Positions 21,180 to 25,709 of a stretch of 64,000 bases of DNA are shown piece by piece (within the stretch, counting starts at the first letter, position 1; the number at the start of each line of letters is the position of its first letter). The stretch is taken from NCBI RefSeq assembly GCF_004765815.2, contig NZ_ML974127.1:536927-600926 (forward strand), written 5' to 3'. The DNA comes from Halorussus salinus (GTDB taxonomy: Archaea; Halobacteriota; Halobacteria; Halobacteriales; Haladaptataceae). Both the position numbers and the translations under genes were made by a program. The notes under the pieces were generated by a model. It saw only the letters and a program-made list of their open reading frames with translations, was not told the DNA's origin and did no database searches.

Positions 21180-21722
21180 TCAGTCGCTCCTCGCGGCTTC
21201 TTCGACCAGTTCGTAGGCTTTCTCACGGAGTTCGCCCGTCATGTGGAGACCGTGGCTATCGACTCGCCGAACGAGGTCTTTGCCGTCCTCCTCGGTCATG
21301 TCCCGTTCTTCGACGGCACGGGCGAGGAGACCGACCGTTCCGGTAACAGTTACGCCGAGACCTCGCACAACGGTTCGGACGCGGTTGTCGTCCGAGATTA
21401 CGCCGAAATCTTCGTGGTGGTCGTCGCTCAGTATCGCGGCTAGTATCTGTACGTCCCCGTTGGCCTCGTCTTCCCCGAGAATCTGTTTCGCTTCCGGGTA
21501 CTCCGAGGCGTCCCCTGTGGCATCGGTAACTCGGCTCACGTCGGGCGCTTCGTGACGGTCCAAGAAGTTCTCCAGATTCGTGTTCGCCGGTTCGGTCGTC
21601 ACCTCGGTTTCTACCTCCGGAACGACGTGGATTTTCCCATCGACGCACGTGAGCAAGTCGAGTTCTCCGATTCGGCCGAGGGCGATGAGGGTCGTCCCAT
21701 CGACCAGAATCCGCGTTCTCAT
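21180..21722 (-). CDS. PIN-domain toxin (DUF3368-like)
   Basis: A 180-residue PIN-fold protein, the toxin of a type II toxin-antitoxin pair and a probable Mg2+-dependent RNase. The N-terminus MRTRILVDGTTLIALGRIGE carries the first acidic residue (Asp 8) in the DUF3368-type DxxTLIALxxIG context. Further acidic positions occur in VPEVETEV, NGDVQILAAIL and FGVISDDNRVR. Its ATG overlaps the antitoxin stop (ATGA). The C-terminal helix region (MTGELREKAYELVEEAARSD) completes the domain. Activity is inferred. Confidence 0.8.
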   Translation of the reverse strand: MRTRILVDGTTLIALGRIGELDLLTCVDGKIHVVPEVETEVTTEPANTNLENFLDRHEAPDVSRVTDATGDASEYPEAKQILGEDEANGDVQILAAILSDDHHEDFGVISDDNRVRTVVRGLGVTVTGTVGLLARAVEERDMTEEDGKDLVRRVDSHGLHMTGELREKAYELVEEAARSD

Positions 21723-22021
21723 AGCTCACGGGCCGCGTCCGCGTCGGCTTCCAAGTCCTCGGGAGATTGTTGGGAAGTCAAGTTTCGCTCGCGGGCGATT
21801 TCGAACCACTCGCCGAGCGACACGCCAGCGATGCGGGCCGCTTCGTTGACCGAGACCTCGCCCGACTGGTACCGTTCGATTGCGACCCGGACCCGGAGGT
21901 CGTACAGTCCCTGATGGAGCGCCTTTCGGATGGTCGTACTCTTGTCTTCTTCCAGCAAATCGGCGACCTCTTCGAGAGCTTTCTCCTCGTCGTCGGGAAT
22001 GCGGGCGCTTATCGACGGCAT
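21719..22021 (-). CDS. UPF0175-like antitoxin
   Basis: A 100-residue protein that precedes and overlaps the PIN toxin gene. The N-terminal half (SISARIPDDEEKALEEVADL, then EDKSTTIRKALHQGLYDLRV) looks like a ribbon-helix-helix DNA-binding domain. The second half (YQSGEVSVNEAARIAGVSLG, EWFEIARERNL) is the helical UPF0175 region that typically pairs with DUF3368 toxins. Such antitoxins usually repress their own operon. The start at 22021 coincides with a palindromic stretch that could be the operator. Confidence 0.82.
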   Translation of the reverse strand: MPSISARIPDDEEKALEEVADLLEEDKSTTIRKALHQGLYDLRVRVAIERYQSGEVSVNEAARIAGVSLGEWFEIARERNLTSQQSPEDLEADADAAREL

Positions 22022-22136: not shown

Positions 22137-22820
22137 TCAACACCCGCAGGCTTCGCAACAGGGCGTGACGTAGCCGGGGAACTGGTGACAGCATCCCACG
22201 ACCCATCCAACGTCACAACCGCTGTCTTCGCAACACTCGACCTCGTAAATCTTGTAGTTGCCAGTGTTGTCGTCGCAGAGTTCGTTGTCACACACCTGCG
22301 CGGTGATGCACCGCTCCTGAATCGTCACGCCGTCCTGCGAGTCGTAGTCGAGGCGCTGGACGGTCTCGTCGCGGTCGAGGTAGCCGTACGTCCGGCCAGC
22401 CTCGGGTTGGACGATGACGTGGAGGTCGTACTCGTCGGTGCGGTACGCGAGGTCGATGTGGGCGGTCAGGCCGTCGTCGCCCGACACCGCGCCGACGTTG
22501 ACGCTCCGGTCGCTCCGGAGGTGTTCGCCCGTCCCCTTCGGTTCGGTCACGAGGTCCGCGGGGTCGGCGCTCTCGACCAGTCCCTCGGCTTCGAGCGCGG
22601 CGAGGAACTCGCCCGCCTGCTCGGCGACGCTCTCGCGGACGACCTCCTCGGTGTCGTACCGGGCGCGGACCTGCTCTTTCTGGGCCATGCTCGCGTACCC
22701 CGCGGCGTCCGCGGCACTGGCGGTTCCCGCGCCCGCCGCGGCGACGGACCCCGCCGCGACTCCTTTCAGAAGGCTTCGTCGGCTTCCGTTCACGTCGTCG
22801 GTCTGGTCGTCTCGGAACAT
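22137..22820 (-). CDS. Tat-exported protein with C-terminal 12-cysteine domain (halocin-like precursor candidate)
   Basis: A 227-residue secreted protein. The N-terminus has NGSRRSLLKGVAAGSVAAAG, a twin-arginine signal, with cleavage likely near residue 37 (TASAAD). Residues about 45-165 form an acidic domain without cysteines (EEVVRESVAEQAGEFLAALE). Residues 171-227 hold twelve cysteines, at 171, 177, 182, 196, 197, 202, 210, 211, 221, 222, 225 and 227, ending TPCCEACGC. The layout (Tat signal, Cys-free middle, Cys-rich small C-terminal domain) recalls the halocin C8 precursor, where the middle part is the immunity protein and the C-terminus the antimicrobial peptide. I see no clear sequence identity to halocin C8, so the role is a hypothesis. 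A very AT-rich promoter lies immediately upstream, suggesting a leaderless transcript. Confidence 0.75.
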   Translation of the reverse strand: MFRDDQTDDVNGSRRSLLKGVAAGSVAAAGAGTASAADAAGYASMAQKEQVRARYDTEEVVRESVAEQAGEFLAALEAEGLVESADPADLVTEPKGTGEHLRSDRSVNVGAVSGDDGLTAHIDLAYRTDEYDLHVIVQPEAGRTYGYLDRDETVQRLDYDSQDGVTIQERCITAQVCDNELCDDNTGNYKIYEVECCEDSGCDVGWVVGCCHQFPGYVTPCCEACGC

Positions 22821-22958: not shown

Positions 22959-23795
22959 ATGACCGACGACTCGTCGCGCTACTTCGTGCCGGGCCACGTC
23001 ACCGGCTTCTTCAGCGTCCACGAGGCCGACGACCCCGAGCAAGCTGGCTCGCGCGGCGCGGGACTGACCCTCTCGAAAGGCGTAACCGCCGAAGTCGAAC
23101 CCGCTGCCGAGACTTCGATGCAACTGAACGACGAACCGGCCGCAATCGAGGCGGTGACGCGCGTCTTGGACGCACTCGACGTTGACGCCTCCGTCCGGGC
23201 GGAGACCGACCTGCCGGTCGGCGCGGGCTTCGGCGTCTCGGGGGCGGCCGCGCTCGGGACCGCCTTGGCCGCGAACCGGACCTTCGACTGCGGGCGCTCG
23301 GAGAACGAACTCGTCTCCATCGCCCACGCCGCAGAGGTCCGCGCCGGGACCGGACTCGGCGACGTGGTGGCCCAAGCCCGCGGGGGCGTCCCCATCCGGC
23401 TCGACCCCGGCGCACCCGAGTACAACCGACTCGACGGCGTGCCCGAGCGAACCCGCGTCGAGTACCTGACGCTGGGCGAACGCTCGACCTCGGCGGTCCT
23501 CTCGGGGAACACCGACCGCCTCTCGGAGGTCGGCGTGGACCAACTCGTCCGACTGGTCGAGGAGCCCACCCTCTCGACGCTGATGGCCTCCTCGCGGGAG
23601 TTCGCCCGCGAGGCCGACCTGCTGACGCCCGAGGTCGAGGAGGTCTTGGCGGAGGTCGAGGCGGTCGGCGGCGAGGCCGCGATGGCGATGCTCGGCGAGA
23701 CCGTCTTCGCACTGGGCAACGGCCTCTCGCGGGCGGGCTACGACCCCGAGACCTGCGAGACCCACCCCGCGGGCGCGACGCTGAAGCTGGACTGA
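22959..23795 (+). CDS. Pantoate kinase (archaeal CoA biosynthesis)
   Basis: A 278-residue GHMP-family kinase that phosphorylates pantoate to 4-phosphopantoate, the first step of the archaeal replacement for the bacterial pantothenate route. Motifs: FVPGHVTGFFSVHEADDPEQ at the N-terminus, the GHMP phosphate loop PVGAGFGVSGAAALGTALA (about residues 88-106), and a C-terminal THPAGATLKLD. GTGLGDVVAQARGGVPIRLD also fits. Translation starts with ATG at 22959, with TTATACGG about 25 bases upstream as a TATA box. The second enzyme of the pathway lies 1.2 kb downstream. Confidence 0.9.
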   Translation: MTDDSSRYFVPGHVTGFFSVHEADDPEQAGSRGAGLTLSKGVTAEVEPAAETSMQLNDEPAAIEAVTRVLDALDVDASVRAETDLPVGAGFGVSGAAALGTALAANRTFDCGRSENELVSIAHAAEVRAGTGLGDVVAQARGGVPIRLDPGAPEYNRLDGVPERTRVEYLTLGERSTSAVLSGNTDRLSEVGVDQLVRLVEEPTLSTLMASSREFAREADLLTPEVEEVLAEVEAVGGEAAMAMLGETVFALGNGLSRAGYDPETCETHPAGATLKLD

Positions 23796-23843: not shown

Positions 23844-24464
23844 ATGTCACGACGAACCATCACCGCGGACGCCACCGGACGACGCTCCGTGCCGCCCGAG
23901 CGAGCGACGGTCGAACTGAAGGTGACGGGCGACGGCGACTCGCCCACCGCCGCCCGGCGGACCGTCGCCGACCGAGCCGCGACCCTTCGAGCGTCGCTGA
24001 CCGACGAAGTGCCGTCGGCCGACCGCGTCGCCACCGTCGAACTTCGCGTCTCGGACTCCTCGAAGGCGTTCGACCCCGCGACGGACGCGCCGTACTTCGC
24101 CGTCGAACGACTGCACGTGGACTGTGCGCCCGAGACCGCCTCGGAGGTCGCCGTGGTAGCGACCGAGAGCGGAGCCACGGTCCCGGATGTGCAGTTCCGA
24201 TTGGACGAGACCGTTCACCGTCGGTTGCAGGACGAGGCGCTCGCCGACGCGATGGCGCGGGCCAGAGCGAAGGCCGACCGGCTCGCGGCCGCCGAGGAGC
24301 TATCGGTCGGCCGGGTCCGGGAGGTGACGACCGAGACGAGCGACGACGCGATGTCGGACATCGTCGAGGAGGCGCTCGCCAACGGTCCGGAGACCGACCT
24401 GAGTCCGGAACCCATCGCTGTCTCCGAGACGGTGGAAGTCGTCTACGAACTGGCCGACGACTGA
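23844..24464 (+). CDS. SIMPL-domain (DUF541) protein
   Basis: A 206-residue protein starting MSRRTITADATGRRSVPPER. The body fits the SIMPL/DUF541 fold: an N-terminal strand region (ATVELKVTGDGDSPTAARRT), the repeated helix-strand unit, and the characteristic C-terminal helix QDEALADAMARARAKADRLA followed by ELSVGRVREV and AVSETVEVVYEL. Bacterial members are usually periplasmic; this copy has no signal peptide and appears cytosolic. It sits between the two archaeal CoA genes. The ATG at 23844 is preferred to one 36 bases upstream because it is where similarity to the fold begins. Confidence 0.8.
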   Translation: MSRRTITADATGRRSVPPERATVELKVTGDGDSPTAARRTVADRAATLRASLTDEVPSADRVATVELRVSDSSKAFDPATDAPYFAVERLHVDCAPETASEVAVVATESGATVPDVQFRLDETVHRRLQDEALADAMARARAKADRLAAAEELSVGRVREVTTETSDDAMSDIVEEALANGPETDLSPEPIAVSETVEVVYELADD

Positions 24465-24470
24465 CTCGGC

Positions 24471-24577
24471 CGACGACCCCCCGCGTACAGTCGCTCCGGA
24501 CGCGCCACCGAATCGAGGAGGGCGTCACGAGCAAGCAGGACTCGTCGCGCAGGGCCGCGGCGAGGCCTGCGACCACC
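24471..24577 (+). pseudogene. Decayed duplicate of the 5' end of the phosphopantoate-beta-alanine ligase gene
   Basis: Bases 24471-24577 align with 24974-25095, the start of the intact ligase gene, over about 107 bases with roughly six substitutions. Relative to the intact copy there is a 12-base deletion, a 2-base gap near the start and a single-base deletion that breaks the frame. The fragment begins a few bases after the SIMPL stop codon (24462-24464), where the intact gene would be expected to start. It appears to be the original gene start, left behind when the segment 24578-24959 entered and the ligase 5' end was duplicated. Confidence 0.85.
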
Positions 24578-24598
24578 CCTAAGATATATCACGCGACC

Positions 24599-24650
24599 GA
24601 ATAATTTTTATCTCACCAGCATAGCATAAATAATGCCGATACAAATCGGC
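24599..24650 (+). promoter_or_regulatory. AT-rich promoter and hairpin leader of the small-peptide gene
   Basis: GAATAATTTTTATC at about 24599-24612 is a TATA-like element in AT-rich sequence. An inverted repeat GCCGAT-acaa-ATCGGC (24635-24650) lies in the predicted leader, ending 11 bases before the ATG at 24662. Confidence 0.45.
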
Positions 24651-24661
24651 GGATAACAATC

Positions 24662-24907
24662 ATGATTCGCAAATCGATGTTCATCGGACTCGCCGCAGTC
24701 GTGCTTCTCGCCGGAATGACGGGCGCTACGGCCGCCACGGACACCGAGACCGTCCAGCAGACGCCAGTCGAAGACGACCGCCTCACGGAACTCAGCGTCG
24801 TTACCATGAACGACGACTGCGTGAACTTGTCGGGCACCGTCTCGGTTCAGTGCGGTGGTGGTGATTACTGCGTCGGTGAACCCGGATCGAACTGCGGTTG
24901 GCTCTGA
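24662..24907 (+). CDS. Small secreted four-cysteine peptide precursor
   Basis: An 81-residue precursor. Residues 1-25 are a Sec signal peptide (MIRKSMFIGLAAVVLLAGMT, then GATAA). Residues about 26-50 are an acidic spacer (TDTETVQQTPVEDDRLTELS). Residues 52-81 are a compact Gly/Cys-rich core with cysteines at 53, 64, 70 and 78 that ends GSNCGWL. Base composition is less GC-rich than the neighbours and the gene lies in a 382-base insert between the decayed and intact copies of the ligase 5' end, so recent acquisition is likely. I do not recognise the family. Possibilities are a disulfide-stabilised antimicrobial or signalling peptide, or a modified peptide precursor; no processing enzyme is adjacent. 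Confidence 0.7.
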   Translation: MIRKSMFIGLAAVVLLAGMTGATAATDTETVQQTPVEDDRLTELSVVTMNDDCVNLSGTVSVQCGGGDYCVGEPGSNCGWL

Positions 24908-24959
24908 CGGAAGCGCCGAATCGGACTCTTTTTTCACGTCACGGTGCCGACCAAGGGGT

Positions 24960-25709
24960 ATGACCGAGATTCCCGACGACCACCCCCGCGCCCAGTCGCT
25001 CCGGACCCGCCACCGAATCGAGGAGGGCGTCGAGTTGGGCATCACGAGCAAGCAGGGACTCATCGCGCAGGGCCGCGGCGAGGCCTACGACTACCTGCTC
25101 GGCGAGGAGACCACGCCGAGCGCCGACCGCGCGGAGCGGGCCGCGGCCGCGCAGTTGCTCCTCGCGGACCACCCCGTCCTCTCGGTGAACGGGAACGTCG
25201 CCGCGCTCGTCCCCGGCGAGATGGTCGCGCTGGCAGAAGCGACCGGCGCGGACCTCGAAGTCAACCTCTTCAACCGGACCGACGAGCGAATGCAGGCCAT
25301 CGCCGACCACCTGCGCGACCACGGCGCGGAAGACGTGAAGGGTCTCGCCGCGGACGGCCGGATTCCGGGGCTGGACCACGAGCGCGCGAAGGTGGACGCC
25401 GACGGCATCGGCGACGCCGACGTGGTGGTCGTCCCGCTGGAGGACGGCGACCGCGCGGAGGCGCTGGCCGAGATGGGTAAGACCGAGATAGTCATCGACC
25501 TGAATCCGATGTCCCGCTCGGCCCAGACGGCCGCGATTCCCATCATCGACAACATCGTCCGAGCGATTCCGAACGTGACGAAACACGCCGAGGAGTTGCG
25601 CGAGCGGGGCGCGAGCCGAGACGAGTTAGAAGCCATCGTCGCCGACTTCGACCGCGAGGAGGCCCTCCGAGCCGCCGAGGAGACGATTCGGCAGGGCGAG
25701 TTGGACTGA
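24960..25709 (+). CDS. 4-phosphopantoate-beta-alanine ligase (phosphopantothenate synthetase)
   Basis: A 249-residue enzyme of the archaeal DUF137 family, which condenses 4-phosphopantoate with beta-alanine to give 4-phosphopantothenate for CoA. Start MTEIPDDHPRAQSLRTRHRI at 24960. Other landmarks are GVELGITSKQGLIAQGRGEA, PVLSVNGNVAALVPGEMVAL, VNLFNRTDERMQAI, VVVPLEDGDRAEAL and DLNPMSRSAQTAAI followed by PIIDNIVRAIPN. It works with the pantoate kinase at 22959. Its 5' end is duplicated upstream (24471-24577), and its present promoter lies within or downstream of the inserted peptide cassette, so its expression may have changed. Confidence 0.93.
   Translation: MTEIPDDHPRAQSLRTRHRIEEGVELGITSKQGLIAQGRGEAYDYLLGEETTPSADRAERAAAAQLLLADHPVLSVNGNVAALVPGEMVALAEATGADLEVNLFNRTDERMQAIADHLRDHGAEDVKGLAADGRIPGLDHERAKVDADGIGDADVVVVPLEDGDRAEALAEMGKTEIVIDLNPMSRSAQTAAIPIIDNIVRAIPNVTKHAEELRERGASRDELEAIVADFDREEALRAAEETIRQGELD

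Follow-up and report, generated by a model that had tools for sequence, protein, structure and literature searches.

In the haloarchaeon Halorussus salinus, the gene for 4-phosphopantoate--beta-alanine ligase (PPS) is preceded by a decayed copy of its own 5' region, and the two are separated by a short insert carrying the gene of a predicted secreted four-cysteine peptide. To judge from the gene orders found in related species, this broken copy (referred to as the stub) is probably a recombination scar between two junction haplotypes, with one end joined homologously and the other illegitimately. The simplest reading of the sequence suggests an ordinary scar at a variable gene junction and no new kind of mobile element. 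The features of the locus, which lies in a 64,000-nucleotide stretch of DNA (the window), are collected in Table 1. Because sampling was one genome per species, all comparisons below are between species.

Table 1. Features of the PoK-PPS locus (window coordinates) and the evidence for each.
Feature	Position	Strand	Evidence
Pantoate kinase (PoK), the conserved gene to the left of the variable junction	22959..23795	+	NCBIfam panto_kin_Meth, E 8e-54, below the model cut-off
SIMPL (DUF541) gene	23844..24464	+	Pfam PF04402, E 1e-21
Decayed PPS stub (gene bases 14-136)	24470..24577	+	Alignment; polarisation of mismatches; best match is the PPS of the same genome
AT-rich region preceding the peptide gene	24578..24661	+	TATA-like AATTTTTATC; putative promoter, from sequence
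Four-cysteine peptide of 81 aa, predicted Sec-like signal	24662..24907	+	Sequence; no Pfam or NCBIfam family
Spacer with presumed PPS promoter	24908..24959	+	TTTTTTC about 30 bases before the ATG
Intact 4-phosphopantoate--beta-alanine ligase (PPS)	24960..25709	+	NCBIfam NF041123, E 1e-94, above cut-off; Pfam PF02006, E 2e-74

Local alignment of the stub with the repeated stretch inside the intact gene (24973-25095) gave 83% identity over 123 columns, with 102 identities, 6 mismatches and gaps of 2, 12 and 1 bases, and its score of 159 compares with a maximum of 33 in 300 shuffles. By blastn within the window the same match had an E value of 3e-32, against 0.006 for the second-ranked match. A preliminary description of this DNA had reported a broken ligase copy with about six substitutions and these three gaps, placed directly behind the SIMPL stop; both points are confirmed, the stub beginning 5 bases downstream of that stop. 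It had also called the repeat a copy of the first 120 or so bases of the ligase gene, which is right as to the 5' region but not as to the start, since the position of the PPS ATG means that the repeat covers gene bases 14-136 and excludes the start codon and the very first bases. The stub is frameshifted and carries neither a start codon nor the PPS promoter. Assembly error is an unlikely source of the repeat, as the two copies differ at 6 sites and by 3 gaps and lie on a 1.6-Mb contig.

At the six mismatched sites the base in the intact gene is the one common among relatives, and that in the stub is rare or absent there; judged by this polarisation, the substitutions fell on the stub side. 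When the stub was searched against 28 genomes of the family at the DNA level, the top match was the intact PPS of its own genome (128 bits), followed by that of G017 (119 bits); all strong matches were to intact PPS genes, and no second PPS copy was found in the other genomes. The stub shares many variable sites with the PPS of its own genome, and a tree of the repeat leaves its placement unresolved. With the own-genome PPS as its closest sequence, the stub was probably copied from a PPS of the same lineage or of a close relative.

The stub also appears to be young. Its divergence amounts to 6 substitutions in 108 sites (0.06), whereas the fourfold-site divergence between this genome and the sister species G014 is 0.26, or about 0.13 per lineage. 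Allowing for Poisson error on six changes, the stub would therefore have arisen after or around the split from G014, which is the nearest sampled species in a tree of PoK plus PPS (support 99/98) and the closest one along the entire length of both genes. Sequence comparison thus supports a repeat structure that is lineage-specific and young, about as old as the separation from G014 or younger.

The junction between PoK and PPS is variable throughout the genus, while its flanks are conserved. In the nearest congeners PoK is 87-93% identical to that of the window and stands upstream of PPS every time. Five species, namely the sister G014, G017, G022 (H. ruber), G012 (H. aquaticus) and G020, have a gap of 33 bp between the two genes; three others (G013, G023 and G011) show the order PoK-SIMPL-PPS; G026 has a gene for an 81-aa four-cysteine peptide between PoK and PPS, with no SIMPL and no repeat; and in G019 (H. 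marinus) and G021 the junction contains different material. In the window the two known orders stand in series, PoK-SIMPL-PPS' followed by peptide-PPS. A repeated PPS 5' end was found in none of the 105 other loci compared (1/106 counting the window itself), and no congener among them has the duplication alone. The alignment of relatives' SIMPL-ligase junctions that had been proposed as a check on recent insertion accordingly shows that duplicate and peptide are not universal, and duplicates standing without cargo, which would have spoken against it, were absent from the same 105 loci. The stub, its decay, the occurrence of both orders in relatives and the absence of the combined structure elsewhere are all direct observations.

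The SIMPL orthologues at the PoK-PPS junction of the three relatives are about 58% identical to the window SIMPL and 65-74% identical to one another, so that the window copy is the most divergent of the four; outside these junction orthologues its best match in the family is only 37% identical. In G011 (H. amylolyticus; L021, L037) the SIMPL gene between PoK and PPS has its middle deleted. Spacer exchange between conserved flanks is seen in the pair G026 and G012, which group by PoK plus PPS with 100/99 support and short branches yet match at only 23 of the 46 bases before the PPS ATG. Over the same 46 bases the window matches G026 at 31 and its sister G014 at 26. The resemblance to G026 is short (75% over 36 bases, E 0.02), and the similarity between the two left cassette edges is not significant (p 0.25).

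Further variation surrounds the junction. In the window aspS lies upstream of PoK, and between them on the minus strand are two overlapping small genes (21180-22021) that, by sequence, look like a PIN-type toxin and its antitoxin; the pair is present in G026, G012 and G023, with none in the regions read of G014, G013 and G017. Also on the minus strand (22137-22820) is a gene for a protein of 227 aa whose N-terminus is twin-arginine-like and whose C-terminal end is very rich in cysteine; it had no family match apart from weak hits to the TAT region and is 87% identical in G014, where it adjoins PoK. Searches of G015 and G018 (L161, L160; given as 99% complete) found neither PPS (PF02006) nor a bacterial-type pantoate ligase (PF02569), and the sole PoK candidate in each is a PoK-like gene of 44-45% identity.

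The insert (24578-24959) has a GC content of about 50-64%, against about 70%, in keeping with the AT-richer segment noted earlier, and the 100 bases upstream of the peptide ATG fall to 44%. As also noted earlier, it holds a single ORF, the peptide gene. A palindrome (GCCGAT-ACAA-ATCGGC, 24635-24650) lies 11 bases upstream of the peptide ATG and is a possible operator or hairpin. The encoded peptide starts with a hydrophobic segment and contains an AxA site and four cysteines. Searches of Pfam and NCBIfam with it returned no family, the lone NCBIfam hit, an autotransporter model, scoring 18 bits against a cut-off of 1459. An AlphaFold2 model built from the 7 family rows (pLDDT 47, pTM 0.13) was set aside, as were the matches that two related peptides gave to an NCBIfam model for a Brevibacillus bacteriocin, which cover the signal region and fall far below the cut-off.

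By these searches the peptide is one of a family that is undescribed, patchy in its distribution and confined to Halorussus, with seven genes in 5 of 18 genomes of the genus and no clear member outside it at E 1e-4 among 293 Halobacteriales genomes, where the few weaker hits were partial or within longer ORFs. All seven members have a Sec-like N-terminus, four cysteines and, three positions ahead of the second of these, a Ser or Thr. The window peptide is most similar (53 and 47% identity) to the products of two tandem genes directly 3' of aspS in G015, where PoK and PPS are missing; identity to the G026 peptide is 25%. In G014 and G020 the peptide genes occupy a different site common to both, adjoining a histidine-kinase-like gene, and H. 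salinus itself has a second four-cysteine member elsewhere (G000:C6:13451-13678; L156 1480-1728, minus strand). Family members are present at or near the PoK-PPS locus in two species besides H. salinus. Given that a peptide gene sits in the same PoK-PPS slot in G026 and that homologues adjoin aspS in G015, the cargo is not foreign to the locus.

The recombination scar can be sketched as follows. From the two starting orders found in Halorussus, PoK-SIMPL-PPS and PoK-peptide-PPS, incoming DNA of a close relative would have been joined to the chromosome on one side through homologous exchange in PPS or PoK, while the opposite end would have been closed by an illegitimate joint near codon 45 of a PPS copy. 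This would give PoK-SIMPL-PPS'(stub)-peptide-PPS, in which the complete PPS would remain functional and the stub, deprived of promoter and start, would decay. Both putative parental orders exist in congeners, and the flanks stay nearest to the sister G014 up to the joints. Because PoK-SIMPL-PPS is a real order in three relatives, the sequence supports the stub as best read as the remnant of a PPS that once stood downstream of SIMPL. The recombination mechanism itself, the closeness of the donor, a single event and the parent strains are what we infer from this arrangement. In view of the short similarity before PPS and the 25% peptide identity, a G026-like donor is not claimed for the cassette, and with the window peptide closer to those of G015, the order with the peptide may not go back to a single inherited haplotype. 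At the SIMPL-stub joint the SIMPL-PPS spacer seen in relatives and the first 13 bases of PPS are missing, so that a further deletion or a second event is needed.

That missing spacer also fits a history of two successive events, in which a genome of PoK-PPS order first took up a peptide-PPS segment within its resident PPS and SIMPL later entered the gap between PoK and the stub, removing the promoter and first bases of the latter. The sister G014 has neither SIMPL nor peptide at this junction, and the divergence of the window SIMPL (58% against 65-74%) would agree with separate entry; however, SIMPL followed by PPS in three relatives makes a SIMPL-PPS' half acquired in one piece the simpler assumption, and the two-step history is improbable. 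Somewhat better placed, although still unlikely, is a tandem duplication in place of the 5' region of PPS, for instance between polyploid chromosome copies, after which the peptide gene would have been inserted independently between the copies and the upstream one would have decayed. The PPS of its own genome as closest match of the stub, and the many variable sites that the two share, speak for such a duplication, but two or more independent events would be required within a short time, the insert begins at the end of the stub and finishes with the PPS promoter, and the duplication alone is found in no congener.

The preliminary description had favoured a small cargo entering at the gene start and restoring the gene with a second 5' end. 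Integrative elements are known to restore the end of their target gene at tRNA genes and also at some protein genes. A site-specific element of this kind would target the PPS 5' end and restore the gene with its own copy, and the succession of old 5' end, cargo and new 5' end with PPS left intact is the geometry expected of it. Visual inspection of the genes about 12 kb to each side, and their comparison with relatives, brought up no recognisable integrase or transposase, and the earlier text had itself remarked that no integrase was visible; the insert is one small gene, the G026 peptide occupies the same slot without a repeat, and peptide genes at other loci lack flanking repeated gene ends. 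The proposed search for duplicated ligase 5' ends around different cargo came back empty in the 105 other loci, which argues against a class of such elements. The likeness to tRNA-gene elements is therefore unsupported, and an integrative element is very improbable here; what survives of the insertion at the gene start is a young, lineage-specific structure with the stub of a SIMPL-following PPS, shorn of the gene-restoring mechanism. Rare imprecise recombination explains the repeat with no dedicated mechanism required.

On this recombination reading, small genes can come and go at a conserved junction of biosynthetic genes with no dedicated mobile element involved, and the scar left behind is readable, roughly dateable and archaeal. 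If the scar alone is real, it has little importance beyond the PoK-PPS locus. The undescribed peptide family, together with peptide-type genes near PPS in several species, offers a handle on secreted peptides of haloarchaea. From its form and patchy distribution, the peptide might be a secreted antagonistic or signalling peptide, a tentative assignment. Peptide-type genes around aspS-PoK-PPS comprise four-cysteine peptides in three species and a LanM-LanA-like pair in H. ruber, where L034 (5228-8720, minus strand) encodes a LanM-size LANC_like protein and a 50-aa precursor-like peptide just downstream of PPS. A more doubtful proposal is that the four-cysteine peptides form a new family specific to the genus, secreted and possibly antagonistic, and that peptide-type genes recurrently land in aspS-PoK-PPS, spread by recombination anchored in the conserved flanks.

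The four-cysteine peptides resemble the archalans, precursors of haloarchaeal class II lanthipeptides (PMC10105419), in being small and having Ser/Thr and Cys near the C-terminus, but differ in their Sec-like signal and in having no LanM neighbour. LANC_like proteins occur in 5/5 genomes with the family, where most are LanM-sized, and in 6/13 others (11/18 in the genus; p 0.054), a co-occurrence kept only as a lead. Six are encoded by H. salinus, all located elsewhere, the nearest on the same contig about 73 kb from the peptide. Precursor-like peptides adjacent to LanM are about 38-65 aa long and mostly without a signal sequence, and HMM matches between them and the four-cysteine family are weak, reaching at best E 2e-4 with a small set searched. 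Being neither LanM-adjacent nor similar to those precursors in leader and core, the family is not filed under class II lanthipeptide precursors. Halocins are likewise secreted haloarchaeal peptides, some with multiple cysteines; they differ in that no halocin profile model matched the four-cysteine peptide.

As for the structure, gene-end-restoring integrative elements share with it a target gene end present twice with cargo between, and they differ from it in that here no integrase was recognised, no second case was found, the repeat is 123 columns of coding sequence and the cargo is a single small gene. Closer is homology-facilitated illegitimate recombination. Illegitimate joining that is aided by homology on one side is described for competent bacteria and E. 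coli (PMC3240628), and in Vibrio cholerae it has been proposed to leave orphan genes, in the form of displaced effector-immunity genes (PMC5361080); haloarchaea are described as highly recombinogenic (PMC3988388). The present case would have in common with these reports (PMC3240628, PMC5361080) one homologous and one illegitimate end, and a truncated or orphan copy of the resident gene that can remain beside an acquired small gene. It differs in being archaeal, in involving a biosynthetic gene and in that the process is read from one structure.
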